From positions 1-64,000 of the IMG/VR virus record IMGVR_UViG_3300033146_001182: a stretch of 64,000 bases of DNA. One strand, written 5' to 3'. Below are positions 4,456 to 47,375 of the stretch, piece by piece. The translations under genes were made by a program, and so were the position numbers. The notes under the pieces are model-generated. The model was not told where the DNA came from and searched no databases. It saw only the letters and a program-made list of their open reading frames with translations. The DNA is from a virus. The number at the start of each line of letters is the position of its first letter. Positions within the stretch are counted from its first letter, which is position 1.

Positions 4456-5243
4456 ATAAAATATATATTGATGGGATTGGTCTTCACAGTGGTAAAACTG
4501 TTGGGGTTACTCTTATACCAAATTCAAACCACGGTATAAGATTTTTCAAAAATTCAATACCCGTCACTAAAAATGTGAATAGTACAGAATTATCAACTTC
4601 TATTGGAACAGATAATAAAATATCAACAATTGAACATTTCATGTCATTACTATACGCATTAGAAATGTTTAATGTTGATATTGATGTGGTTGGTAATGAG
4701 ATGCCAATATTAGATGGCAGTTCAATTGAAATATATAATAAAATGTTAGAACAAGATTTTATAGTTGATTGTTCTAATAATCCACCCCCAATTGTAATCA
4801 CTCAAGATTTGAAAGTTACAAAAGGTAATTCATATATAAAAATATCCCCATGTGAGAGGACAGAAATTGATTTTATTATTGATTTTGATCATCCATTGAT
4901 CGGTGAACAGAAATATAACTTTGTATTGACACCAGAGACATATATAAATGAAATTGCACCAGCAAGAACATTTGGTTTCTATAGAGAATATGAATATCTT
5001 AAATCAATAGGTTATGTTAAAGGTGGTTCATTGTCTAATGTCGTTGTCTTAACAGATGATGGAATAATGAATGTTAATGGTTTAAGATTTCCTGATGAGT
5101 TTGTAAGACATAAGATATTAGATTTGATTGGTGATTTTAGTTTATTAGAACGTCCATTTATAGGTAAAATTGAAGCATATAAGTCAGGACATACACTCAA
5201 TAATGAAATGGTAGAATTGATTAAAATGACATTATGCAATTAA
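4452..5243 (+). CDS. lpxC: LpxC, UDP-3-O-acyl-N-acetylglucosamine deacetylase
   Basis: LpxC catalyses the committed step of lipid A synthesis in Gram-negative bacteria. All family landmarks are present in 263 residues: GIGLHSGK (8-15), TIEHFMS with the zinc-ligand pair E61/H62, PILDGS (85-90), PARTFGF (170-176), GGSLSNVVV (191-199), LRFPDEFVRHKILDLIGD with zinc ligands H220 and D224, and KSGHTLNN with the catalytic histidine H247. It is shorter than the roughly 305 residues of E. coli LpxC, but no core motif is missing. Translation appears to start at GTG 4452, overlapping the previous TGA by four bases. No capsid-targeting leader is seen. It is the last gene of the plus-strand operon. Confidence 0.95.
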   Translation: MNKIYIDGIGLHSGKTVGVTLIPNSNHGIRFFKNSIPVTKNVNSTELSTSIGTDNKISTIEHFMSLLYALEMFNVDIDVVGNEMPILDGSSIEIYNKMLEQDFIVDCSNNPPPIVITQDLKVTKGNSYIKISPCERTEIDFIIDFDHPLIGEQKYNFVLTPETYINEIAPARTFGFYREYEYLKSIGYVKGGSLSNVVVLTDDGIMNVNGLRFPDEFVRHKILDLIGDFSLLERPFIGKIEAYKSGHTLNNEMVELIKMTLCN

Positions 5244-5285
5244 ACATAATATCATTTATGGTGTTATAGAAGTGATAAAAATTAA

Positions 5286-5507
5286 TTATTTTTTATTTCT
5301 CTTTCTGAATTTCTTTCTGTTTCTAGCAGCGTAAGCTTTCCCCCTGCGGTTTACACATTCTTCAAATCTACCAGTAATTTCATTGAATCTACCAGTTGGA
5401 ATATCCCCATAATCTTTAGTGAAGTCACGATGAACAATTCCGTCAATTTTATGAATATGCCAACATTTATGTTCAATTATTACATCTACAGTTTTATAAA
5501 AAGTCAT
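5286..5507 (-). CDS. Small basic early protein
   Basis: A 73-residue protein ending in a Lys/Arg-rich tail (RNRKKFRKRNKK), of unknown function. The ATG at 5507 is chosen over the longer GTG frame because GGGAGA lies just upstream and the longer form would begin inside the conserved leader. It is driven by a near-consensus promoter at 5552-5580. Confidence 0.65.
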   Translation of the reverse strand: MTFYKTVDVIIEHKCWHIHKIDGIVHRDFTKDYGDIPTGRFNEITGRFEECVNRRGKAYAARNRKKFRKRNKK

Positions 5508-5551
5508 ATCAATTCTCCCAAAAGAAAGGGTTATCACCAACTCACAAACTT

Positions 5552-5580
5552 AGTATAACCTTTCTTGATTATAAAGTCAA
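5552..5580 (-). promoter_or_regulatory. Early sigma70-type promoter with shared leader
   Basis: TTGACT, 17 bases, TATACT on the minus strand. The transcript would begin with the leader TTTGTGAGTTGGTGATAACC (reverse complement within 5525-5548), also found after the promoters at 6862, 7343 and 32998. Confidence 0.85.
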
Positions 5581-5744
5581 GAATTAAAAATTAACTCTCA
5601 ACCCAAATATTTATATTATCCCACACCCTTTCATTGATAATATCATCTTGTAAATCAACCCTCGTTCTATTGAACCACCCTGTATGTTGGGTTTACGTTC
5701 TTCAACCAACAACCATCGGGTTTAGTGTTCAACAGCAAAACGAT
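5581..5744 (-). other. Short non-coding stretch with a possible gene remnant
   Basis: No complete gene is seen. A minus-strand frame ending at about 5588 could encode about 34 residues finishing VWDNINIWVES, but it has no ATG, so it looks like the tail of a decayed gene. The spacer motif AATATTTGGGT..GAGTTAA resembles the spacers around 5945 and 6135. Confidence 0.4.
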
Positions 5745-5915
5745 TTACAAATTTTTCAAATATTTGTCCACAATTTCTTCAAGATCAGACCACAGTAATC
5801 CATCACCTTGTGCAACAGAATTCCGAACGGCTAACATGAAGTCCATATAGTCTTGAGTATTTCTTGTGGAATTTTCAAATTTCTTAAATGCGGATTCAAA
5901 AGCTAATTTTTTCAT
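5745..5915 (-). CDS. Small hypothetical protein, 56 aa
   Basis: An acidic, helical 56-residue protein (MKKLAFESAFKKF...) preceded by AGGGGAATAG before the ATG. Function unknown. It is one of a run of very short early genes between 5286 and 7295. Confidence 0.6.
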   Translation of the reverse strand: MKKLAFESAFKKFENSTRNTQDYMDFMLAVRNSVAQGDGLLWSDLEEIVDKYLKNL

Positions 5916-6896: not shown

Positions 6897-7295
6897 TTAT
6901 TCATGAATTTCCCTTACAACTTCAGCATCTTCAGCGTTATTAATAATGTGATATGCGGCATCAATTTTAATATCAAAGTGAACATATTTGTCGCCTTGCA
7001 TACCTTGCTCAGAGTAACCCATTTCATCTACCAGACCATACTCATCGTCAAGATAGTTAATAACATCTTCTTCAAAAACACGGTCAGTGTAAATAAGACC
7101 GTCTTTACGGACATCCCAATCATTCTCATCAAAATGAACCTCAAGAAATGCCCAACGACCATACATGACATCATCAACGATTTCAATTTTAATTTCTTTG
7201 ATACGAACTTTACGGGCAGGAACATTACTCCACAGAGATTTTGCACCGAAGTTGAACCATACATCTTCTGTTGGGATGGTGTATACTTTATTCAT
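6897..7295 (-). CDS. Hypothetical early protein, 132 aa
   Basis: An acidic protein of unknown function. The start at 7295 (MNKVYTIPTEDV) is chosen because TTAGGAGATTTGAT precedes it and a longer frame would run into the leader. It contains regular beta-type segments around EIKIEIVDDVMYGRWAFLEV. Confidence 0.6.
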   Translation of the reverse strand: MNKVYTIPTEDVWFNFGAKSLWSNVPARKVRIKEIKIEIVDDVMYGRWAFLEVHFDENDWDVRKDGLIYTDRVFEEDVINYLDDEYGLVDEMGYSEQGMQGDKYVHFDIKIDAAYHIINNAEDAEVVREIHE

Positions 7296-7342
7296 ATCAA
7301 ATCTCCTAAAAAGAAAAAGGATTATTACCAACTCACAAGAAG

Positions 7343-7371
7343 ATAATAACCCATATTTGAAATGGAGTCAA
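7343..7371 (-). promoter_or_regulatory. Early sigma70-type promoter with shared leader
   Basis: TTGACT, 17 bases, TATTAT on the minus strand, followed by a slightly diverged copy of the common leader (GTGAGTTGGTAATAA) at 7315-7338. Confidence 0.8.
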
Positions 7372-7374
7372 GAG

Positions 7375-7719
7375 TTAATTTGGTGCTGCCTCCAAACATT
7401 CCGTCATTTGTTTTGCAGCAAAATCATCAATCACTTGTTGACGATATTTTTCTTTAACCCTTTTTACTTTATATGCATCTATGATTATTAGAGTAACTAA
7501 TTCATCAATTGTATCATATTGACTATTATGTTTCTTGGCATATTCTTGTTGTTTTTTAATCATATCTTTCATTGGTGTTCCATTTTGTCTATGTATCATA
7601 ATGTTTTCTGATACAGTGTAAAATATTGAACATACTTGTCTATCTTCTGCGGTAATTTGTCCAAATGCCGAACCACTCATAATAATAATTAATAGACATA
7701 CTAATATAATATTTTTCAT
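7375..7719 (-). CDS. Secreted/periplasmic hypothetical protein with signal peptide
   Basis: Starting at ATG 7719, preceded by GGGAGAGTTAAT, the 114-residue product begins MKNIILVCLLIIIMSGSAFG, a clear Sec signal peptide with a likely cut after AFG. The mature part is helical and charged, with two Cys (EDRQVC and MTECLE). Function unknown; export suggests action in the periplasm. Confidence 0.7.
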   Translation of the reverse strand: MKNIILVCLLIIIMSGSAFGQITAEDRQVCSIFYTVSENIMIHRQNGTPMKDMIKKQQEYAKKHNSQYDTIDELVTLIIIDAYKVKRVKEKYRQQVIDDFAAKQMTECLEAAPN

Positions 7720-7720
7720 A

Positions 7721-8611
7721 TTAACTCTCCCTTTTGAATGGTAACTCAAATGGAAGGATTGATTGTTGAAAACCAGATGCACCCATGTGTCCACCACCCC
7801 CATATTTTTTTGCAATACTTCCAACATCTACATTTTTCTTATCGGTATACATTGATATGGTCCATTTACCGTTTGTAAAGCCAAAGGTTAATACGGCATC
7901 ATAATCCCTATGATTGAACTTAGAATCAAACAGTTGTGAATTGATATTCATTGCATTTGCTGCCAAAAACCTATGATTTTCAAAATACAAATCAAATGAA
8001 TGTGATTTACAATATGATTCATTCAATTGTGTCTGGTAATCATAACAAATATCCCCAATTCTTATAATTTCATCATATAAATCTTCATCTTCTTCAATAA
8101 TTTTTTTCCAGAATAACCTATCATCAGCATTAGGGTCTTTGAATCTAATACCTGTCTGATAAATTAATACATCTTCATGGAAATCCAAATCCCATACATC
8201 ATATCTACCAATCAATTGAATTCCTCTTGGATAGATTTTATCAGCTGTAAACCACTCCCATGTTAATTCACATCCAGCATCACCAACTCGTTGAATTCCT
8301 TGAAATGATTGTCCTGATTTTTTCATATCTTCAATTGCTGTTTTATGATGATCTATCCAAATAAAATTATCTTCACCGACAATTTCTTTGAGTTTAATCA
8401 TATCGGAAAATGGTTGAAGACCAAAATCAACCATATATACTTTCTGTGCTCGCTTAATAAGATTCCAAGGAACATCATATCCATAGTTCATTTTATACAT
8501 CTGACATTCTTTACCAAGATTTTCTTCAAAGTATCCTACAATTGCTCCTGCACTAATTCCATCTGCGTCATTATGATGAATTACTAGATTTTCAATATCT
8601 TTTTGTTTCAT
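7721..8611 (-). CDS. DHH/DHHA1 phosphoesterase
   Basis: This 296-residue protein has the full NrnA-like layout: HHNDADGISAG (12-22), VDF (61-63), the DHH triad in WIDHHKT (85-91) and the DHHA1 glycine motif GGGGHMGASGF (271-281) near the C-terminus. Members degrade nano-RNA, pAp or cyclic dinucleotide products. It is the second DHH enzyme of the window. Its ATG overlaps the TGA of the upstream gene (ATGA). Confidence 0.85.
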   Translation of the reverse strand: MKQKDIENLVIHHNDADGISAGAIVGYFEENLGKECQMYKMNYGYDVPWNLIKRAQKVYMVDFGLQPFSDMIKLKEIVGEDNFIWIDHHKTAIEDMKKSGQSFQGIQRVGDAGCELTWEWFTADKIYPRGIQLIGRYDVWDLDFHEDVLIYQTGIRFKDPNADDRLFWKKIIEEDEDLYDEIIRIGDICYDYQTQLNESYCKSHSFDLYFENHRFLAANAMNINSQLFDSKFNHRDYDAVLTFGFTNGKWTISMYTDKKNVDVGSIAKKYGGGGHMGASGFQQSILPFELPFKRES

Positions 8612-9390
8612 TGTGTTAATCCCTTCTTATATGTAATGTATTTTTTATAATTTATTTCTTCATCAATTGTAAAATAATCATATTCACATTCAACATTAAT
8701 AAAATGTCTTTGTATGTATTGTGACCATTCAGTTTTTTTGGGTAATGTTGGGTATATATTCTCATCTAATGATATATTAATATGATATATGATGTCATCT
8801 AACATTTCTTTTATATGAGATTTTACTAAGTCACCTCTATCATTTAATGTAAGTGATATTTTATTACCTTTATTATCAATCATATAACCATTTTTGAAGG
8901 TAACATCTTTAGCATCATCAAAAAATGGAATAATGAACTTCTTCCCTTTATATTCACTATAATATTCATCACGATCTATATCAACAAAGACTTTTCTGAC
9001 AAATTCTTTGTGGTAATTCCCCGTATTTGATTTTTGCCAATACTCAAATATAGGTAAACCCTTTTGTTCAATGTGTCCATATATAAATGATTCTTGATTA
9101 TATTCCAATGAAAATTGTGTAAGGTCTTTTATAGTAATGTTGGGGATAAAAAATGAATGTTCTTTCCCACCAAAATGTCCATCAATTACCCTATAACCAT
9201 ATCGTTTAGTAGATAGATGTTCTTTGAATTCATCTACCAATAATTTATTCTCTTTTGGTGATATCAATTCCCCCATCGGATTTTCAGGTGTCATGATCCC
9301 AAAAGTTTTAATTGTTGGTTTATATCCCGCTAATGCCAATTTTAATTGAGAAGATGTAGATTCATTTATATATTTTGACAACTTACTCAT
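8608..9390 (-). CDS. Hypothetical protein with capsid-targeting N-terminus
   Basis: A 260-residue protein starting MSKLSKYINESTSS, a good capsid-targeting match with a predicted cut after INE. The segment FGIMTPENPMGE (30-41) and the GYRVIDGHFGGKEHSFFI block look like a conserved phage domain, but I cannot name it. It sits between the transglycosylase and DHH genes with four-base overlaps. Confidence 0.65.
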   Translation of the reverse strand: MSKLSKYINESTSSQLKLALAGYKPTIKTFGIMTPENPMGELISPKENKLLVDEFKEHLSTKRYGYRVIDGHFGGKEHSFFIPNITIKDLTQFSLEYNQESFIYGHIEQKGLPIFEYWQKSNTGNYHKEFVRKVFVDIDRDEYYSEYKGKKFIIPFFDDAKDVTFKNGYMIDNKGNKISLTLNDRGDLVKSHIKEMLDDIIYHINISLDENIYPTLPKKTEWSQYIQRHFINVECEYDYFTIDEEINYKKYITYKKGLTQ

Positions 9391-40755: not shown

Positions 40756-41048
40756 AAAATTAATCCTACATCACGTTTTGATAATTCAATCTTATACTTC
40801 TTTTTCATGAAATCTCGAAGTTCTTTTCGAATTTTATCAACTTCTTTCATGAATTTAATTTTTTGACCTGGAGCCATACCTTTTGAATGCTTATCATAAT
40901 AATTTTTAATCAACTTCGCACAAGATTTTGCTTGTTCTTTAGTTTTACAACTCTTTATAGATTTTTGAACTTTTTCTAAATCCTGTTCACGATTTTTATC
41001 TTCACCTTCGTTAATTTCAATATATTTTTCAACAATATCTTCAATCAT
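40752..41048 (-). CDS. Small helical capsid-targeted protein candidate
   Basis: 98 residues starting MIEDIVEKYIEINEGEDK (INE then G). The rest is Lys/Glu-rich helix with two Cys. Basic, packaged-type composition. Function unknown. Confidence 0.6.
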   Translation of the reverse strand: MIEDIVEKYIEINEGEDKNREQDLEKVQKSIKSCKTKEQAKSCAKLIKNYYDKHSKGMAPGQKIKFMKEVDKIRKELRDFMKKKYKIELSKRDVGLIL

Positions 41049-41350
41049 TTGTTCTTCTCCTCGTGACGTTTTGTTTGTTTTTCATAACATAAAATAGCAT
41101 CAGATAACCCATTATTATATGTTTTCATTTTTTGTGCATTACCTATCAATATATTTATGTTATATGCACTACCTAAATGACTGTTTGGGTCAAGTTCTAC
41201 ATAATTAGGTTTATTAGGAACAGTACAAGGATTATATACATATACTGTTTTTATGATCACCTTTGGTTCAGGTGGAATCGGTTTAGGACATCCACTAATT
41301 ATTAAAGATATCATTAAGACGATTAACAGCATCAATACTCTTTTCATCAT
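41045..41350 (-). CDS. Outer-membrane lipoprotein, Rz1-like o-spanin candidate
   Basis: 101 residues. The signal sequence MMKRVLMLLIVLMISLIISG ends in lipobox LIISGC, followed by a proline-rich PKPIPPEPK stretch typical of Rz1. The gene overlaps the upstream i-spanin-like gene by 56 bases in another frame, the classical arrangement. Together they would fuse inner and outer membranes at lysis. Confidence 0.7.
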   Translation of the reverse strand: MMKRVLMLLIVLMISLIISGCPKPIPPEPKVIIKTVYVYNPCTVPNKPNYVELDPNSHLGSAYNINILIGNAQKMKTYNNGLSDAILCYEKQTKRHEEKNK

Positions 41351-41720
41351 TCACCACCTTATTTGATGATGGAACTACAGGAGTTTCATCATCATTATTA
41401 TAACACACTTTATTATCATATAATTCTTGCCAATGTTCTACTTGTTTGTAAGCAGCTTCTAATTGTTCTTTTATTGCATTATTAGATTTCATCCATTCAT
41501 CTGCTTGATTGTTACATGTACTAATTGCATCTAATAAATCACTTTCATTACTCTTACAAGTATTGAAATTATTTTCCATTAGAACTATTGATGCTTTAAG
41601 TTTTTCTATTTTTGCATCTTGTATTTTATTATTAGTATATAATGTTCCACATATTAACACTAATACAATAATTGCTAATATTGCTGGTTTCTTTATAAAA
41701 TTTAATACCATCATCCACAT
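41295..41720 (-). CDS. Rz-like i-spanin candidate
   Basis: 141 residues. A single N-terminal transmembrane segment (PAILAIIVLVLICGTLY) is followed by a periplasmic coiled coil with several Cys and a C-terminal SIDAVNRLNDIFNN, resembling spanin ends. AGGAATATAAAAA precedes the ATG. It overlaps the lipoprotein gene. Confidence 0.7.
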   Translation of the reverse strand: MWMMVLNFIKKPAILAIIVLVLICGTLYTNNKIQDAKIEKLKASIVLMENNFNTCKSNESDLLDAISTCNNQADEWMKSNNAIKEQLEAAYKQVEHWQELYDNKVCYNNDDETPVVPSSNKVVNDEKSIDAVNRLNDIFNN

Positions 41721-42084: not shown

Positions 42085-43194
42085 CTAATGAATAATTCTT
42101 ATATTAACAGGTTCTTCTTCAACAATTTCTTCCTCTGTCAAATCACAGATTGAATCATCGTTGTCATCGGTATCAATTTTAATATCAATACCATATGATA
42201 CTTGGTGATAACCTGTTTGTCCACCAGTACCACTTTCTTCATCTTCGGTTGTCCAATTTTCAACTTCATTTTTTGTTGTATCTTCAATGGACTCCCATTC
42301 TTCCTCTTCCCATTCCTCATCAGTCATGACCATAGTTTGTTCTTCTTCCATTTGTTGAAGAAGATGAAGTTCTTGGTCAGCAGTTCCATCTTCAATCAAT
42401 TCAGTAATATCATCATCTGAATAATATTTACTTAATGATGTACGAAGTTCTTTTTCCATTTTAGGAGTGTAATACAAACCTGTTACTGGATGAAGATGTC
42501 GTGTTACAACATCTTTTGAAATTGAAGAATCAATATCACTAAAATGATTAACATAAACAGGACGATTGGAATTGATTTTAGAAGTAAACTCTTTTTCAAA
42601 AGCATCTTCATCAAGAACTTTCTTATGTTTTACTGAAAAAGTCAAATCTTCAGCAAGAATATAAGAACCACAAAGGGTCTTCATTCTTACTTGTCCTTTA
42701 ATTGGTGAAGAAGGGTTAGTTGAAACTACAATTGAAACATCATGGTTTTGATTAATATAAGCATCATCAGTTCCACTAAAAAATGCTCCCATTGTATGGT
42801 GTGAATGGATAACACCAATGATTTTACGACCATCACTCCAACCATATTCAACATTATAAACATTAACTCCTGTTACTTCTTGACTATCAGGAATAATAAT
42901 ATCAGTTACCAGAACATGTTTTTGTTCATGATTAACTTCACCTTCCAGATAAGCCAACCATTCCAAAGTTGGGTAATAATCTTGAAGTTTTTTGATTTTC
43001 TCATCAGCCAAAACTTCAAATTCAACCTTATATTTAGGAACGGTCATATGACCACATGTTTTGATGATTTTAATACCAGCATCCCAACAAGTATTTGCTG
43101 CGGCAATTTGTTTGGCAAATGCCCCACCCTTATTATGTTTTTTAATAAGTGCGTCCATTTCCTCATTGGTCATTGGTTTCAAATGATTTTTCAT
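42085..43194 (-). CDS. JAMM/MPN-domain metalloprotease (deubiquitinase-like)
   Basis: 369 residues. The JAMM motif is complete: H130-S-H132 then S140-G-T-D143 in HSHHTMGAFFSGTDD, with an upstream glutamate in AYLEGE near 84. JAMM enzymes cut isopeptide bonds to ubiquitin-like proteins or mature their tails. The C-terminal 100 residues are very acidic. In this four-gene module it would be the deconjugating or maturation enzyme. Own promoter at 43233-43261. Confidence 0.85.
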   Translation of the reverse strand: MKNHLKPMTNEEMDALIKKHNKGGAFAKQIAAANTCWDAGIKIIKTCGHMTVPKYKVEFEVLADEKIKKLQDYYPTLEWLAYLEGEVNHEQKHVLVTDIIIPDSQEVTGVNVYNVEYGWSDGRKIIGVIHSHHTMGAFFSGTDDAYINQNHDVSIVVSTNPSSPIKGQVRMKTLCGSYILAEDLTFSVKHKKVLDEDAFEKEFTSKINSNRPVYVNHFSDIDSSISKDVVTRHLHPVTGLYYTPKMEKELRTSLSKYYSDDDITELIEDGTADQELHLLQQMEEEQTMVMTDEEWEEEEWESIEDTTKNEVENWTTEDEESGTGGQTGYHQVSYGIDIKIDTDDNDDSICDLTEEEIVEEEPVNIRIIH

Positions 43195-43232
43195 ATTAAA
43201 TCCTTATAGTTTATTTGTTATCAGATGGGGCT

Positions 43233-43261
43233 AGTATAACCTAACCCCATGATTCTGTCAA
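43233..43261 (-). promoter_or_regulatory. Early promoter of the JAMM gene
   Basis: TTGACA, 17 bases, TATACT on the minus strand. The -10 lies in an imperfect GGGGTTAG/CTAGCCCC dyad; the leader contains ATCTGATAAC shared with the E1- and E2-like genes. Confidence 0.85.
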
Positions 43262-43263
43262 GA

Positions 43264-43857
43264 TTAAACAGAATAGAAATCTTTCAAATGACAACCCATT
43301 TCACCACCTGAATATTTCATTACTTTTCCAACAACCAGTGCGGCAGCCATAATGGCAGGAACAGCCCAAGATGGGGTAACACGATAACCATCTTGTGTAT
43401 CACCAACATCCCAAGAAGCAACACGGTCATTGATAGACATACGTTCACCATCATAACCTGATTTTACATACTTAGCACCATTCTCATCTGCCATTCGTTG
43501 ATTTTCAAGTTGTGATTTATGGTTATCAGTACAATCAATAACCCAATCAACATTTTTTGGATAAGTATGGTCTTTCAGTGGAAATGGAAATGCCTTCACT
43601 TTTGTATCAGGACGAAGTTGTTTAATAACAGTTTTGACAATATCAGCTTTATTTTTACCGATAAAATCAGCTGTTACATCCAACCGATTAAGATTAGATT
43701 CTTCCAAAGTATCAGGGTCAAAAACATACAGTTCTTTGATACCAGACATTGCCAAAAGTTTAGCAACATGAAAACCAATTCCGCCAGCACCAACTACTAA
43801 TACTTTCAAATCAGTATTAATTCCTTCAATCAATTCTTGCCGATTGTAAATGGACAT
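43264..43857 (-). CDS. E1-like (ThiF/MoeB/UBA superfamily) adenylating enzyme
   Basis: 197 residues. GAGGIG (23-28) binds the nucleotide, DPDTLEESNLNR (47-58) holds the acidic and arginine residues, and VIDCTDN (107-113) is the conserved central strand. It is shorter than ThiF (about 250), with only two Cys, C109 and C189. E1-like enzymes adenylate the C-terminal glycine of a beta-grasp modifier. The modifier gene at 44958-45170 is the likely substrate. Confidence 0.85.
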   Translation of the reverse strand: MSIYNRQELIEGINTDLKVLVVGAGGIGFHVAKLLAMSGIKELYVFDPDTLEESNLNRLDVTADFIGKNKADIVKTVIKQLRPDTKVKAFPFPLKDHTYPKNVDWVIDCTDNHKSQLENQRMADENGAKYVKSGYDGERMSINDRVASWDVGDTQDGYRVTPSWAVPAIMAAALVVGKVMKYSGGEMGCHLKDFYSV

Positions 43858-43895
43858 AATTTTTTCCTTTCAAATAATCGTTATCAGATAGATAT

Positions 43896-43924
43896 ATAAT
43901 ACGAAATTAAGTTTGATTTGTCAA
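43896..43924 (-). promoter_or_regulatory. Early promoter of the E1-like gene
   Basis: TTGACA, 17 bases, TATTAT on the minus strand, followed by the leader ATCTGATAACGA. Confidence 0.85.
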
Positions 43925-43926
43925 GA

Positions 43927-43958
43927 AAAGATTGGGCGAAATAAATCACCCAATCTTT
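43927..43958 (-). terminator. Intrinsic terminator after the E2-like gene
   Basis: Perfect 10-bp stem AAAGATTGGG/CCCAATCTTT with a 12-base loop and a TTTTCTT tract on the minus strand. Confidence 0.85.
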
Positions 43959-43966
43959 CCTCATTA

Positions 43967-44827
43967 TCAGGTTGACCAGACAGAACCAACATTATCTGAT
44001 ACATCTTGTGTGATACCAGACCGTTCATCTGCCCTTGAGACAGAATACTGGACATCTTCACCACGATTAAGAAGATGTTGTTGGAGGGTTGAAAGTCTAG
44101 GCAATCCTGTTGGTGTGGTAGTTCCTGGTGATGCTGAATTGACATTTTCCAAAACAACCAAGGCTTCACGACCAATTGCCAAAATATCATCAGGTGAAGA
44201 CCAAGTTTGTGGATGTCGCCAATCACCCCAACAATCAGAAGAACGACCCATTGCGTGATAATGTGAAAACTTATCTAATCCAATGGTTTTACGGACGATA
44301 ACTTCATTTACACGGTCATCTTCTGTTTTAATTTCAATAGTAACAGGTGAAATAAGACGTTTGGAGTATTTTGGTTCAATTGGACGACCATCAACATATT
44401 TTGGCCAGTATACACCTTGATACAACCAAACCATACGACCATTACCATTTGAAACAACAGACAAACCAGCTTTTGCGTGTTCACGAGTAATATTTGGCAT
44501 AATATTACTTGAGTTCAATCGTTCCTGTAATTCACGTTCTTTTTCTTCATAATCCATACGGTTTTGTTCAACCATATAAGACATTTCTGACATTTTTTCA
44601 TTCAGAACTGATTTGATTTGTTGAAGTTTTTCGGTAAGTTTAGCAGAATATTCTGCCCGAATATCGTCTTCTGGTAGAGAAAATTCCTCAGTAATTTCAA
44701 GTTTCACCACCCGTCCACCGATACGAACAGTCATTCCCTCAGATTTTACGTCATCAATTGAAACACTATCAAGAGTGTTATCAATAGAATCTTTAATATC
44801 TTCAACAACAGATGTATCCCAAGCCAT
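43967..44827 (-). CDS. Candidate E2-like protein of the ubiquitin-like module
   Basis: 286 residues. An N-terminal beta part and a coiled coil (55-105) precede a C-terminal domain with FSHYHAMGRSSDCWGDWRHP (187-206) and DDILAIGREALVVLENVNSA (213-232). A histidine-containing strand, a Cys followed by WG (C199), then a helix ending before a Pro/Gly-rich tail resembles the E2 fold in bacterial ubiquitin-like operons. C199 is the proposed active-site cysteine. The match is by motif order only; another partner function remains possible. Confidence 0.5.
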   Translation of the reverse strand: MAWDTSVVEDIKDSIDNTLDSVSIDDVKSEGMTVRIGGRVVKLEITEEFSLPEDDIRAEYSAKLTEKLQQIKSVLNEKMSEMSYMVEQNRMDYEEKERELQERLNSSNIMPNITREHAKAGLSVVSNGNGRMVWLYQGVYWPKYVDGRPIEPKYSKRLISPVTIEIKTEDDRVNEVIVRKTIGLDKFSHYHAMGRSSDCWGDWRHPQTWSSPDDILAIGREALVVLENVNSASPGTTTPTGLPRLSTLQQHLLNRGEDVQYSVSRADERSGITQDVSDNVGSVWST

Positions 44828-44863
44828 AATGTTTTCCTTTCTTTTTCGTTATCAGATGAATAT

Positions 44864-44892
44864 ATAATACTATTCTTTTCAGGTGGTGTCAA
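44864..44892 (-). promoter_or_regulatory. Early promoter of the E2-like gene
   Basis: TTGACA, 17 bases, TATTAT on the minus strand, followed by the leader CATCTGATAACGA. Confidence 0.85.
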
Positions 44893-44897
44893 GAGGA

Positions 44898-44938
44898 AAA
44901 AATACAGGATTGAGGTTTTAATTCAATCCTGTATTTTT
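44898..44938 (-). terminator. Strong intrinsic terminator after the modifier gene
   Basis: Perfect 16-bp stem (AAAAATACAGGATTGA and its complement) with a nine-base loop and a T-tract on both strands. Confidence 0.9.
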
Positions 44939-44957
44939 AATTGAAGTTACGTTATTT

Positions 44958-45170
44958 CTAACCAGCCACTTCATAAGGCTTAATTTCCAGTGCCATGCCA
45001 CTTTCCATATTAGCTGGAGCAGTAGCAGGGTCAATTTCCGAACCATTCAGAATAACACGGAATTTCCCAAGTCCAGCATCTTTTGCGGCACTAATTACGG
45101 TATCTTTGAAGGAAGTTCCCTCAGTGATGGTAGAAGTAGAACCATTGATAGTCAGAGTTGCGTTTGCCAT
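44958..45170 (-). CDS. Ubiquitin-like/MoaD-ThiS-type beta-grasp modifier
   Basis: 70 residues. MANATLTINGSTSTITEGTS, a central helix (FKDTVISAAKDAGLG), FRVILNGSEIDP and the end GMALEIKPYEVAG follow the beta-beta-alpha-beta-beta pattern of beta-grasp proteins. The exposed C-terminus ends A-G, suited to adenylation and conjugation; no trimming is needed to expose glycine. Two near-consensus promoters and a strong terminator suggest abundant, separate expression. Confidence 0.75.
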   Translation of the reverse strand: MANATLTINGSTSTITEGTSFKDTVISAAKDAGLGKFRVILNGSEIDPATAPANMESGMALEIKPYEVAG

Positions 45171-45320: not shown

Positions 45321-45776
45321 TTATTCAACATTCCATGATTTATTTTCTTCAATTTTGTTAAGATCCCCTAATGGAAGACCACAACTTTTTCTAAGAAAAT
45401 TCCAACCATAGATACGACCATTTGTATCAAAATCTGGTTTTTCAATCAATTTAATGTCATCAGTTGACCACATATTTTGATTTTTTTGTACCATTTCAAT
45501 CCATTGAACATATTGAGTATGATAATCGTAATATCTATCAATATCAGCTTGTGTTGGATTGATAGTAAGGTCTTCATTTAGAATGATTTTTAATTGTTCA
45601 TCAACATATTCTTGTGCTTTAACAACATCATAAACATTTTTTAATAATTTAACATCTTCTTCTGTTAGTTGAACTGGTTGATTTTGTTGAACTTTTTCTT
45701 GTTCATTAATTTTTTTAATTTCGTCAGATAATAACCACCGTTCTATTTTACCACTTAGATTTTTGAAAAATCCCAT
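45321..45776 (-). CDS. Hypothetical protein downstream of the sliding clamp
   Basis: 151 residues, acidic and helical, with NEDLTINPTQADIDRYYDYH and NGRIYGWNFLRKSCGLPLGD segments. No recognised domain. Separated by 15 bases from gp45, so probably co-transcribed. Confidence 0.65.
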   Translation of the reverse strand: MGFFKNLSGKIERWLLSDEIKKINEQEKVQQNQPVQLTEEDVKLLKNVYDVVKAQEYVDEQLKIILNEDLTINPTQADIDRYYDYHTQYVQWIEMVQKNQNMWSTDDIKLIEKPDFDTNGRIYGWNFLRKSCGLPLGDLNKIEENKSWNVE

Positions 45777-45791
45777 AACTAACCCTTTCCG

Positions 45792-46529
45792 TTATTCTTC
45801 TAATTTAGATAATAGGTAATACTTTTCACTACTGTCATTATTTTCAAATAATACCATACCAGCACCTTGTGCGTCAACCCAAGTAAACTTTGCAGTAAAA
45901 TTATTTAGGTTTTCATTGATACATTGTAATACAGCATTAAAGTTCTTAAAATCAAAACAAATATCAATATCATCATGATCAATTTCACCCAATTCAAAAT
46001 TGATTCCATTGGCAAACCGATTGGTTCTATCAGTTGTTTCCACACTAAACTTTTTATCTTTTACTGTAAAATAAACTTTTTCAAACTTACCAGCAACTTT
46101 ACGGATTTTATCAAAATATTCACCAACTTCTGGTGTCAATTCAAGTTCATAAAATGCAGGAATATTTGGTTCTTGTCCAGTGAATGTAGTGACAAATGAA
46201 GACATACAAAAATGAAGATTTGTTCTATGCCTACCATCCTTCAATGTTAATTTATCATCTGTTACTATAGCATTTACTGTTTCACTATCAATGAGATTAA
46301 GATACGGTTTAACCTTCATATTAGGTTCATCAAAATTAAGTTCAATTTCACCTTGAATTTCATTGATGGCTTCGTTTTTTAAGTCAAGATAAACAACAAC
46401 TGTATTATTGGCACTCCTCATTTTTGTTGTAATTTTCTCATTATCAGCTTTTAACTGAACAGATGGAATTACATAATTAAGAGTTGCTTTCTTAATAACT
46501 TCCTGTAATTGTTCTACATTTATAATCAT
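45792..46529 (-). CDS. 45: DNA polymerase sliding clamp, T4 gp45 type
   Basis: 245 residues, acidic, with the repeating beta-alpha pattern of PCNA-like clamps. MIINVEQLQEVIKKA opens domain 1; ELELTPEVGEYFDKIRKVAG opens domain 2; the C-terminus ends in a strand KYYLLSKLEE. Length is close to T4 gp45 (228). The gp62 and gp44 loader genes are upstream in the same strand, supporting the call. Confidence 0.8.
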   Translation of the reverse strand: MIINVEQLQEVIKKATLNYVIPSVQLKADNEKITTKMRSANNTVVVYLDLKNEAINEIQGEIELNFDEPNMKVKPYLNLIDSETVNAIVTDDKLTLKDGRHRTNLHFCMSSFVTTFTGQEPNIPAFYELELTPEVGEYFDKIRKVAGKFEKVYFTVKDKKFSVETTDRTNRFANGINFELGEIDHDDIDICFDFKNFNAVLQCINENLNNFTAKFTWVDAQGAGMVLFENNDSSEKYYLLSKLEE

Positions 46530-46593: not shown

Positions 46594-46872
46594 TCAACTA
46601 TTTTTTGTAGTCCAAACTTTTTCAGATTTTCGTTTTTTTAATTCACCAAGATAGGAATGAAGAAGGAATTGTTGTTTTACTGTAGGTTTGAACTTCTTCA
46701 ACATTAAACCAGCACAAAAAGCATTAATAATTGTCCAAGTATTGAATTCAAAATCAATTACACAAGCAATATTCATGGCAAATATAATAGCACATAAAAA
46801 ACTCCATAGTTCTTCTTTGTAAATCAATTTTGTAATACCTTTAATTTCTTCATCTAAGTTCAACTTGTCCAT
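46594..46872 (-). CDS. Small membrane protein
   Basis: 92 residues with one or two hydrophobic segments (LWSFLCAIIFAMNIACVIDF and TIINAFCAGLMLKKF) and a basic C-terminus. Unknown function. Confidence 0.6.
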   Translation of the reverse strand: MDKLNLDEEIKGITKLIYKEELWSFLCAIIFAMNIACVIDFEFNTWTIINAFCAGLMLKKFKPTVKQQFLLHSYLGELKKRKSEKVWTTKNS

Positions 46873-47375
46873 AATTCCACCTTTCTGTTTGGGTTCAATG
46901 TAATTAACTTACCTTTTAAGCCACTTGTTTTAACTGATTTAATATTATTTTCACCATATACAACTAAACAACTTGGTGCATTTGCCGTATTAGTAATCTT
47001 ACCAGAAATATGATGAAACTTCAACCTTCCTTTGAAAAAAAATATCGCATCTGCCTTATTCCATATTTGTTCATGAAATCCAATAGTTTCAGTTCTAGCA
47101 AATATTAAACCAATACCATTACCGTGTTTATGTAATTTTTCCATCCATTTGAAAGTTTCTCTCCCATAAGGTGGATTACACCATACTCTACCATACCATT
47201 CTTGTCGTAAACCATTATCTAATGTTGAATAATGATTTTTTGCTGTATCCCAAGGTCTTACATCAGGAAGTGGTGAACATGGGTCTAAATCAAACTCACC
47301 TAATGATTCAATAATATATGGTGGAGTTAACCATTCTTCTTTATTGTGTGTATTTGTATTAAAATCTTTAGACAT
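46860..47375 (-). CDS. dam: Phage DNA N-6-adenine methyltransferase (Dam-type)
   Basis: 171 residues of the phage N-6-adenine-methyltransferase family: EEWLTPPYIIESLGEFDLDP (13-32) for cofactor binding and CNPPYG (66-71), the catalytic (N/D)PPY motif. It methylates adenine in DNA, probably to mask phage DNA from restriction or to mark strands. It lies between clamp and clamp-loader genes. Confidence 0.9.
   Translation of the reverse strand: MSKDFNTNTHNKEEWLTPPYIIESLGEFDLDPCSPLPDVRPWDTAKNHYSTLDNGLRQEWYGRVWCNPPYGRETFKWMEKLHKHGNGIGLIFARTETIGFHEQIWNKADAIFFFKGRLKFHHISGKITNTANAPSCLVVYGENNIKSVKTSGLKGKLITLNPNRKVELWTS

Follow-up and report, generated by a model that had tools for sequence, protein, structure and literature searches.

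A clamp-linked gene cassette in T4-like phages suggests a phage-encoded ubiquitin-like conjugation operon

Eukaryotes and some archaea possess complete ubiquitin-like pathways, and so do bacteria, in operons that in several cases act against phages. In the Bil antiviral system, whose operons serve anti-phage defence, BilA is the ubiquitin-like protein (Ubl), BilB the conjugating enzyme (E2), BilC the JAB protease and BilD the activating enzyme (E1). The PRTRC operons, which Iyer et al. (2006) classed as type 6d, comprise the Ubl PRTRC-C, the E2_D protein PRTRC-B, the JAB protein PRTRC-A and a ThiF protein (PMC1779556). In this study, we analysed a 64-kb portion (positions 1 to 64,000, hereafter the window) of the 88.8-kb virus record IMGVR_UViG_3300033146_001182, in which four neighbouring genes code for a Ubl, a 286-residue protein (P286), an E1 and a JAMM metalloprotease. 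These genes probably constitute a phage-encoded ubiquitin-like conjugation operon. The best reading of the data is that this operon is part of the phage core genome, contains a new E2-like family and is linked to the sliding clamp. No report of phages carrying their own complete Ubl pathway was found in the literature searched, in which subscription journals and preprints were thinly covered, leaving an earlier description possible; a survey published in 2021, covering 224 jumbo phages, does not mention such a cassette (PMC7824862).

The four open reading frames (ORFs) were found on the minus strand at the positions that the first-pass annotation of this DNA had given. The order on that strand is clamp, 151-aa protein, Ubl, P286, E1 and JAMM, followed by small genes. 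The features of the cassette are as follows.

44958..45170, minus strand: Ubl, a 70-aa ubiquitin-like (beta-grasp) modifier ending in Y-E-V-A-G (AlphaFold2 (AF2) model, Foldseek, 36 homologues).
44961..44966, minus strand: C-terminal A69-G70 of the Ubl, with G70 in 33 of 36 homologues and Ala in three.
43967..44827, minus strand: P286, a 286-aa candidate E2-like transfer protein with C199 as its only invariant Cys (36 homologues, AF2 model, invariant columns).
44225..44269, minus strand: putative active-site block of P286, F187-x-H189-Y190-H191-x7-C199-W200-G201 (FxHYH and CWG in 36/36 homologues).
43264..43857, minus strand: E1, a compact Ubl-activating enzyme of the ThiF/MoeB type, 197 aa, lacking both a Cys half-domain and a rhodanese domain (Pfam ThiF).
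42085..43194, minus strand: JAMM/JAB metalloprotease, 369 aa, with an acidic low-complexity C-terminal tail (Pfam Prok-JAB).
42766..42807, minus strand: JAMM motif H130-S-H132-x7-S140-x2-D143, inside HSHHTMGAFFSGTDD (invariant columns).

Searches with P286, E1 and JAMM recovered the cassette from IMG/VR contigs and from three contigs in metagenome-assembled genome (MAG) bins, giving 36 different cassettes in uncultivated phages. Clustering at 90% identity leaves 33 groups among the 36 P286 proteins, whose median pairwise identity is 36%, and homologues of the cassette genes stand in the same order on dozens of other phage contigs at median identities of 33-52%. When loci were retrieved through E1 alone, without selection for P286 (n = 29), the arrangement clamp-Ubl-P286-E1-JAMM was present in a single direction and order in 27; the exceptions were L084, whose contig begins within the cassette, and L081. 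All complete loci of sufficient length have the clamp upstream of the cassette, and in L032 the E1 and JAMM genes overlap stop-to-start. Taken together, the family matches and the conserved order across relatives indicate that the four-gene set is not a product of chance. Correlations between the distance matrices of the five genes were positive, ranging from 0.19 to 0.47, and given this unevenness they were not used as proof of co-evolution. A set of 50,697 phage records yielded no relative of P286. The named phage Rctr197k has a ThiF gene and was considered, but was set aside, since neither P286 nor a recognised JAMM adjoins that gene.

The first-pass annotation had called the 70-residue protein a beta-grasp modifier and had named structure prediction as the check. 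The AF2 model (predicted local distance difference test (pLDDT) 84) has the element order strand-strand-helix-strand, and Foldseek placed ThiS, SUMO and ubiquitin-based designs on top (probability 1.00, best E = 4.4e-3), with ThiS as the best single match among solved structures. On this model we are confident that the Ubl adopts a beta-grasp fold. At the sequence level, nothing exceeded threshold in Pfam, PHROGs, NCBIfam or PADLOC, and a PDB sequence search with the Ubl profile gave nothing significant. Across the family the conserved Gly, in an A/P-G end, is followed by 0-6 variable residues (none, A, T, R, M, SK, AE, VE, LV, RANR, NVNP, GEITG, NVVLV or AIILCQ). Conservation of the Gly together with freedom in the tail is the pattern of a processed modifier, for which the JAMM supplies the protease. 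The window Ubl ends directly in Gly, its C-terminus being AG rather than GG. The proposal to look for A-G isopeptide remnants in infected cells does not hold for a tryptic digest, in which none would be expected because the nearest trypsin site of the window protein is K64-P65, a bond resistant to trypsin; Glu-C digestion would leave a VAG remnant. Eight larger phage contigs each carry one copy of the Ubl.

The assignment of an E1-like adenylating enzyme was borne out. The protein exceeded the Pfam ThiF (PF00899) cut-off of 28.1 with 97.1 bits (E = 1.2e-27), and its profile matched MccB, Uba1, MoeB and ThiF in the PDB, MccB being best. GAGGIG occupies residues 23-28 and NLNR residues 55-58. 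The adenylation residues are all invariant: R6-Q7, GxGGxG, N55/N57/R58, K70 and D108-C-T-D111 are unchanged in 19 E1 proteins, and the MoeB residues R73, K86 and D130 (PMC12355090) correspond to these motifs. C109 of DCTD is the only invariant Cys of the 19 proteins, the other cysteines of ThiF/MoeB being absent. In PADLOC 2.0 only E1-E2 models were matched, through the E1 portion of CBASS-type models.

The JAMM motif, reported earlier as intact, is so. The protein scored 35 bits against Prok-JAB (PF14464; cut-off 25, E = 1.4e-8), the same family was matched by 11/11 members scanned, and none of E78, H130, S131, H132, S140 and D143 varies among 21 proteins; a PDB sequence search with the JAMM profile gave nothing significant. 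Members of a second subgroup (L032:6764-7756, L043:1-892 and L021:4831-6006) carry an N-terminal CxxC zinc-ribbon-like extension that is absent from the window JAMM.

P286 is the least familiar member of the cassette. C199 is its sole invariant Cys (36/36), and in the model a helix (212-225) follows it. The predicted layout comprises an N-terminal hairpin, a long coiled coil and a small alpha/beta domain with strands 122-126, 131-140, 160-169 and 172-180, a low-confidence loop containing H189-Y-H191 and C199, and the helix; this predicted order of four strands, Cys loop and helix is that of the E2 fold. The model is poor (pLDDT 66, predicted template modelling score 0.45) and was built from nine sequences, before the family reached 36. 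Among the fold matches, 8tz0_C and 8tz0_D, from a bacterial E1-E2-Ubl complex, ranked 8th and 10th (E = 1.5, not significant); we take these chains to be the E2 of the complex, judging from their length. In sequence, the best local hhalign alignment of P286 (36 sequences) to PRTRC-B falls on the Cys, CWG against CxG, and its score of 16.0 is not significant against a shuffled-target maximum of 18.2; CxG occurs at the catalytic Cys in 12/13 of the PRTRC E2_D proteins collected, CWG in two. In a Cys-centred alignment against hand-typed human E2 sequences, the window segment was among the best 7% of 590 Cys segments; the mean over the family was 1.4 against a background of -6.1 (standard deviation 6.8), yet below most PRTRC-B controls. 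This alignment is suggestive only.

Several results weigh against this reading. Foldseek with the P286 model against 350,542 chains gave no significant match, nor did a BFVD fold search or a PDB sequence search with the P286 profile. P286 had no above-threshold match in Pfam, PHROG, NCBIfam or PADLOC, 22 members had none to the Pfam E2 families, and hhalign comparisons with E2_D (PRTRC-B), the Bub E2 and two hand-typed human E2 sequences reached a probability of at most 1.4. In eukaryotic E2s the spacing is HPN-x7-Cys, which fits only nine of the 36 P286 proteins, the HYH-x7-C of the window among them; the HYH-to-Cys spacer is 2, 5, 6 or 7 residues, and since it differs in most relatives it is no evidence for the family. 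The two His and the Cys could bind a metal instead. Elsewhere in the cassette, three of 36 Ubls, two of them near-identical, lack the terminal Gly, and L081 (57 kb) has E1 and JAMM with no Ubl or P286 found. A search for Prok-E2_B in 295 genomes returned nothing and, since its controls were at zero as well, is uninformative. The earlier statement that the 286-residue protein resembles an E2 active-site region is an interpretation: the invariant Cys within an invariant HYH...CWG, the predicted strand/Cys-loop/helix order and the strict operon linkage speak for an E2-like role, and the want of an E2 family match or of a significant profile or fold match speaks against it. These data neither establish P286 as an E2 nor rule it out.

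P286 is duplicated in tandem at L074:5968-6957 and 6964-7710, as in the related L075, with HYH...CWG in both copies; a two-enzyme or E2/E2' pair is possible. Other irregular loci include L011, in which reverse-strand GIY-YIG-like genes (5234-5854 and 7566-8300) separate Ubl from P286 and E1 from JAMM with all four frames unbroken, and L005, in which a complete E1 (7730-8320) is followed by a partial repeat of its C-terminal part (9022-9201), as if from repeat or mobile-intron activity. The cassette remnant at L081:2916-5839 adjoins mobile-element-like genes (TnpB-like/transposase-like, HNH). Of the contigs from MAG bins, L021 and L043 sit in a Thermoplasmata bin and L020 in an Izimaplasma (Mollicutes-like) bin; all three look like phage contigs, either misbinned or binned with their host, and may hint at hosts.

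If the cassette conjugates, the JAMM would trim those Ubl precursors that bear extra residues, exposing the terminal Gly, a step unneeded in the window because its Ubl already ends in Gly; it would also take the Ubl off products. The compact E1 would spend ATP on an acyl-adenylate at the Ubl C-terminus. As E1 has no invariant Cys beyond that of the structural DCTD, the simplest and most likely route is that C199 of P286 itself attacks the Ubl-adenylate, after which P286, as an E2-like enzyme, would use its HYH...CWG site to hand the Ubl over to a target protein. What we infer here is the thioester transfer, the attachment to proteins, the target and the purpose.

The main rival, which we regard as unlikely, is a sulfur-carrier or small-molecule pathway without conjugation, in which a ThiS/MoaD/CysO-like Ubl is adenylated by the E1 for thiocarboxylation, P286 accepts sulfur or serves as a thiolation enzyme and the JAMM cleaves a carrier adduct, much as Mec+ cleaves that of CysO. 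The closeness of the Ubl model to ThiS fits such a role, as does an E1 of MoeB/ThiF size without an E1 Cys domain, and sets of Ubl, E1 and JAMM are known in sulfur pathways too (PMC1779556). However, none of the genes beside the cassette was recognised as a rhodanese, cysteine-synthase, sulfurtransferase or tRNA-thiolation gene, the Ubl ends in AG rather than GG, and the ThiF/MoeB cysteines are missing save that of DCTD; E1/JAB operons without metabolic enzymes have, moreover, been predicted to be standalone regulatory pathways (PMC1779556). Given a Ubl, an E1, an invariant-Cys protein and a JAMM with no recognised sulfur or cofactor enzyme, Ubl conjugation is the best explanation.

Conjugation might instead serve conflict, the cassette being a captured bacterial antiviral operon (Bil/CBASS-like) directed against rival phages, or a decoy disturbing a host tagging defence; we judge this rather improbable. 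Genes for defence or counter-defence tend to be mobile and patchily distributed, whereas this cassette keeps a single fixed position next to the clamp across phages that share a median clamp identity of 38%, and no linked effector (CD-NTase, nuclease) was seen. On the other side, CBASS operons with such activities do serve defence (PMC10097602, PMC11153139), and the E1 matches the E1 portion of their E1-E2 profiles. Least probable of all, and in our view very doubtful, is that P286 is a metal-binding or structural partner, with HYH and C199 holding a metal and the Ubl acting by way of a product that is non-covalent or, as with MccB, a peptide-nucleotide. A cluster of the form H-x-H...C could plausibly bind a metal, MccB is the best solved match of the E1 profile and the fold searches were not significant, but MccB-type chemistry leaves the folded beta-grasp Ubl, its kept terminal Gly and the JAMM protease unexplained, and a Cys loop followed by a helix agrees with the E2 order.

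The neighbourhood and the remainder of the window agree with the description of a T4-like, contractile-tailed phage with one such operon: a gp43-type DNA polymerase (541 bits), sheath, primase, helicase, ribonucleotide reductase, clamp and a clamp loader with a Gp44-lid match were present. By DNA polymerase the closest phages in the collection searched are cyanophages, at only about 30% identity. Two further genes lie upstream of the Ubl.

45792..46529, minus strand: sliding clamp, gp45-like (phrog_223, E = 5.1e-9; synteny).
45321..45776, minus strand: 151-aa protein between clamp and Ubl, confined to the window's own subgroup and without an above-threshold family match in Pfam or PHROGs.

A Dam-type DNA N6-adenine methyltransferase gene (46860-47375; Pfam Dam, 47 bits) adjoins the clamp region. 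Downstream of the cassette, overlapping ORFs at 41045-41350 and 41295-41720, one with a lipoprotein-like signal and the other with an N-terminal membrane segment, are a probable spanin pair.

Clamps act in replication and, in T4, in late transcription. The linkage may mark only an ancestral insertion site, or it may reflect a functional tie to these processes; its constancy makes the clamp, or the replication/late-transcription machinery, the first candidate target. A bolder version, to which we give little credence, is that P286 founds a new E2-like class and that phages use it to tag the sliding clamp or replisome of their own, as a viral equivalent of PCNA ubiquitylation/SUMOylation controlling replication, late transcription or DNA repair. 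If conjugation is true, a cassette fixed beside the replication clamp would be a viral protein-tagging pathway serving the normal growth of the phage, P286 would represent a new family of cysteine enzymes with which to ask how few components such a pathway requires, and the clamp link would point to a concrete substrate.

Among described systems, PRTRC is the closest operon by composition. Both have a free-standing Ubl of about 70 aa, an E2-like protein (a candidate one in the phages), a compact ThiF and a JAB in one operon on mobile DNA; hhalign related the phage proteins to PRTRC with probabilities of 98% for E1 and 70-84% for JAMM, AFFSGTDD is common to both, and C-x-G at the PRTRC-B Cys has its likeness in CWG of P286. 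In contrast, the phage proteins fall below the NCBIfam cut-offs (ThiF, 37.6 versus 144.75 bits; A, 25.2 versus 101.8 bits), and the phage Ubl and P286 gave no match to Prok_Ub or E2_D, including by hhalign, whereas the EbN1 PRTRC controls match these families at 5e-23 and 7e-64. ParB and the PRTRC E and F proteins were not recognised in the subset of neighbour ORFs scanned. The PRTRC parallel drawn in the first-pass annotation thus stands for E1 and JAMM by profile, and membership of the phage cassette is not supported at the sequence level. In the PRTRC operon of a Sulfuricystis multivorans plasmid (L052:555-1682), dnaN (beta clamp) occupies the usual place of ParB, adjoining the operon as the clamp does in the phages.

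Bil, known here by description rather than by sequence, has on separate genes the four activities proposed for the phage cassette, and a bacterial E1-E2-Ubl complex appeared, below significance, among the fold matches of P286; it differs in that P286, with 286 aa and a coiled coil, has no sequence match and is phage-carried at a fixed position. Type II CBASS (Cap2/Cap3) shares E1-type activation, a JAB protease and the PADLOC match, but Cap2 is an E1-E2 fusion with a CD-NTase substrate, whereas the phage proteins are separate, with a dedicated Ubl. Membership was rejected because the 197-aa phage E1 is unfused and no CD-NTase was found among the neighbours scanned. The multi-ubiquitin (Bub, type 6e) sets likewise join Ubl, E2 and E1 on plasmids (L045, L048 and L049), but with multiubiquitin proteins, a longer E1 and a DUF6527 partner; the single-domain phage Ubl and the presence of a JAMM exclude the cassette from them. 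The TAPI-TAPK tail-assembly genes of lambda/T1 also combine a Ubl and a JAB peptidase in a phage (PMC1779556), but lie among tail genes, without E1 or E2 and with the JAB fused to NlpC/P60, whereas the JAMM here is unfused and the cassette adjoins clamp and spanin-like genes, so this assignment too was rejected. Belonging to none of the systems tested, the phage cassette resembles in its working a bacterial Ubl conjugation operon, which suggests that phages run a protein-tagging pathway of their own.

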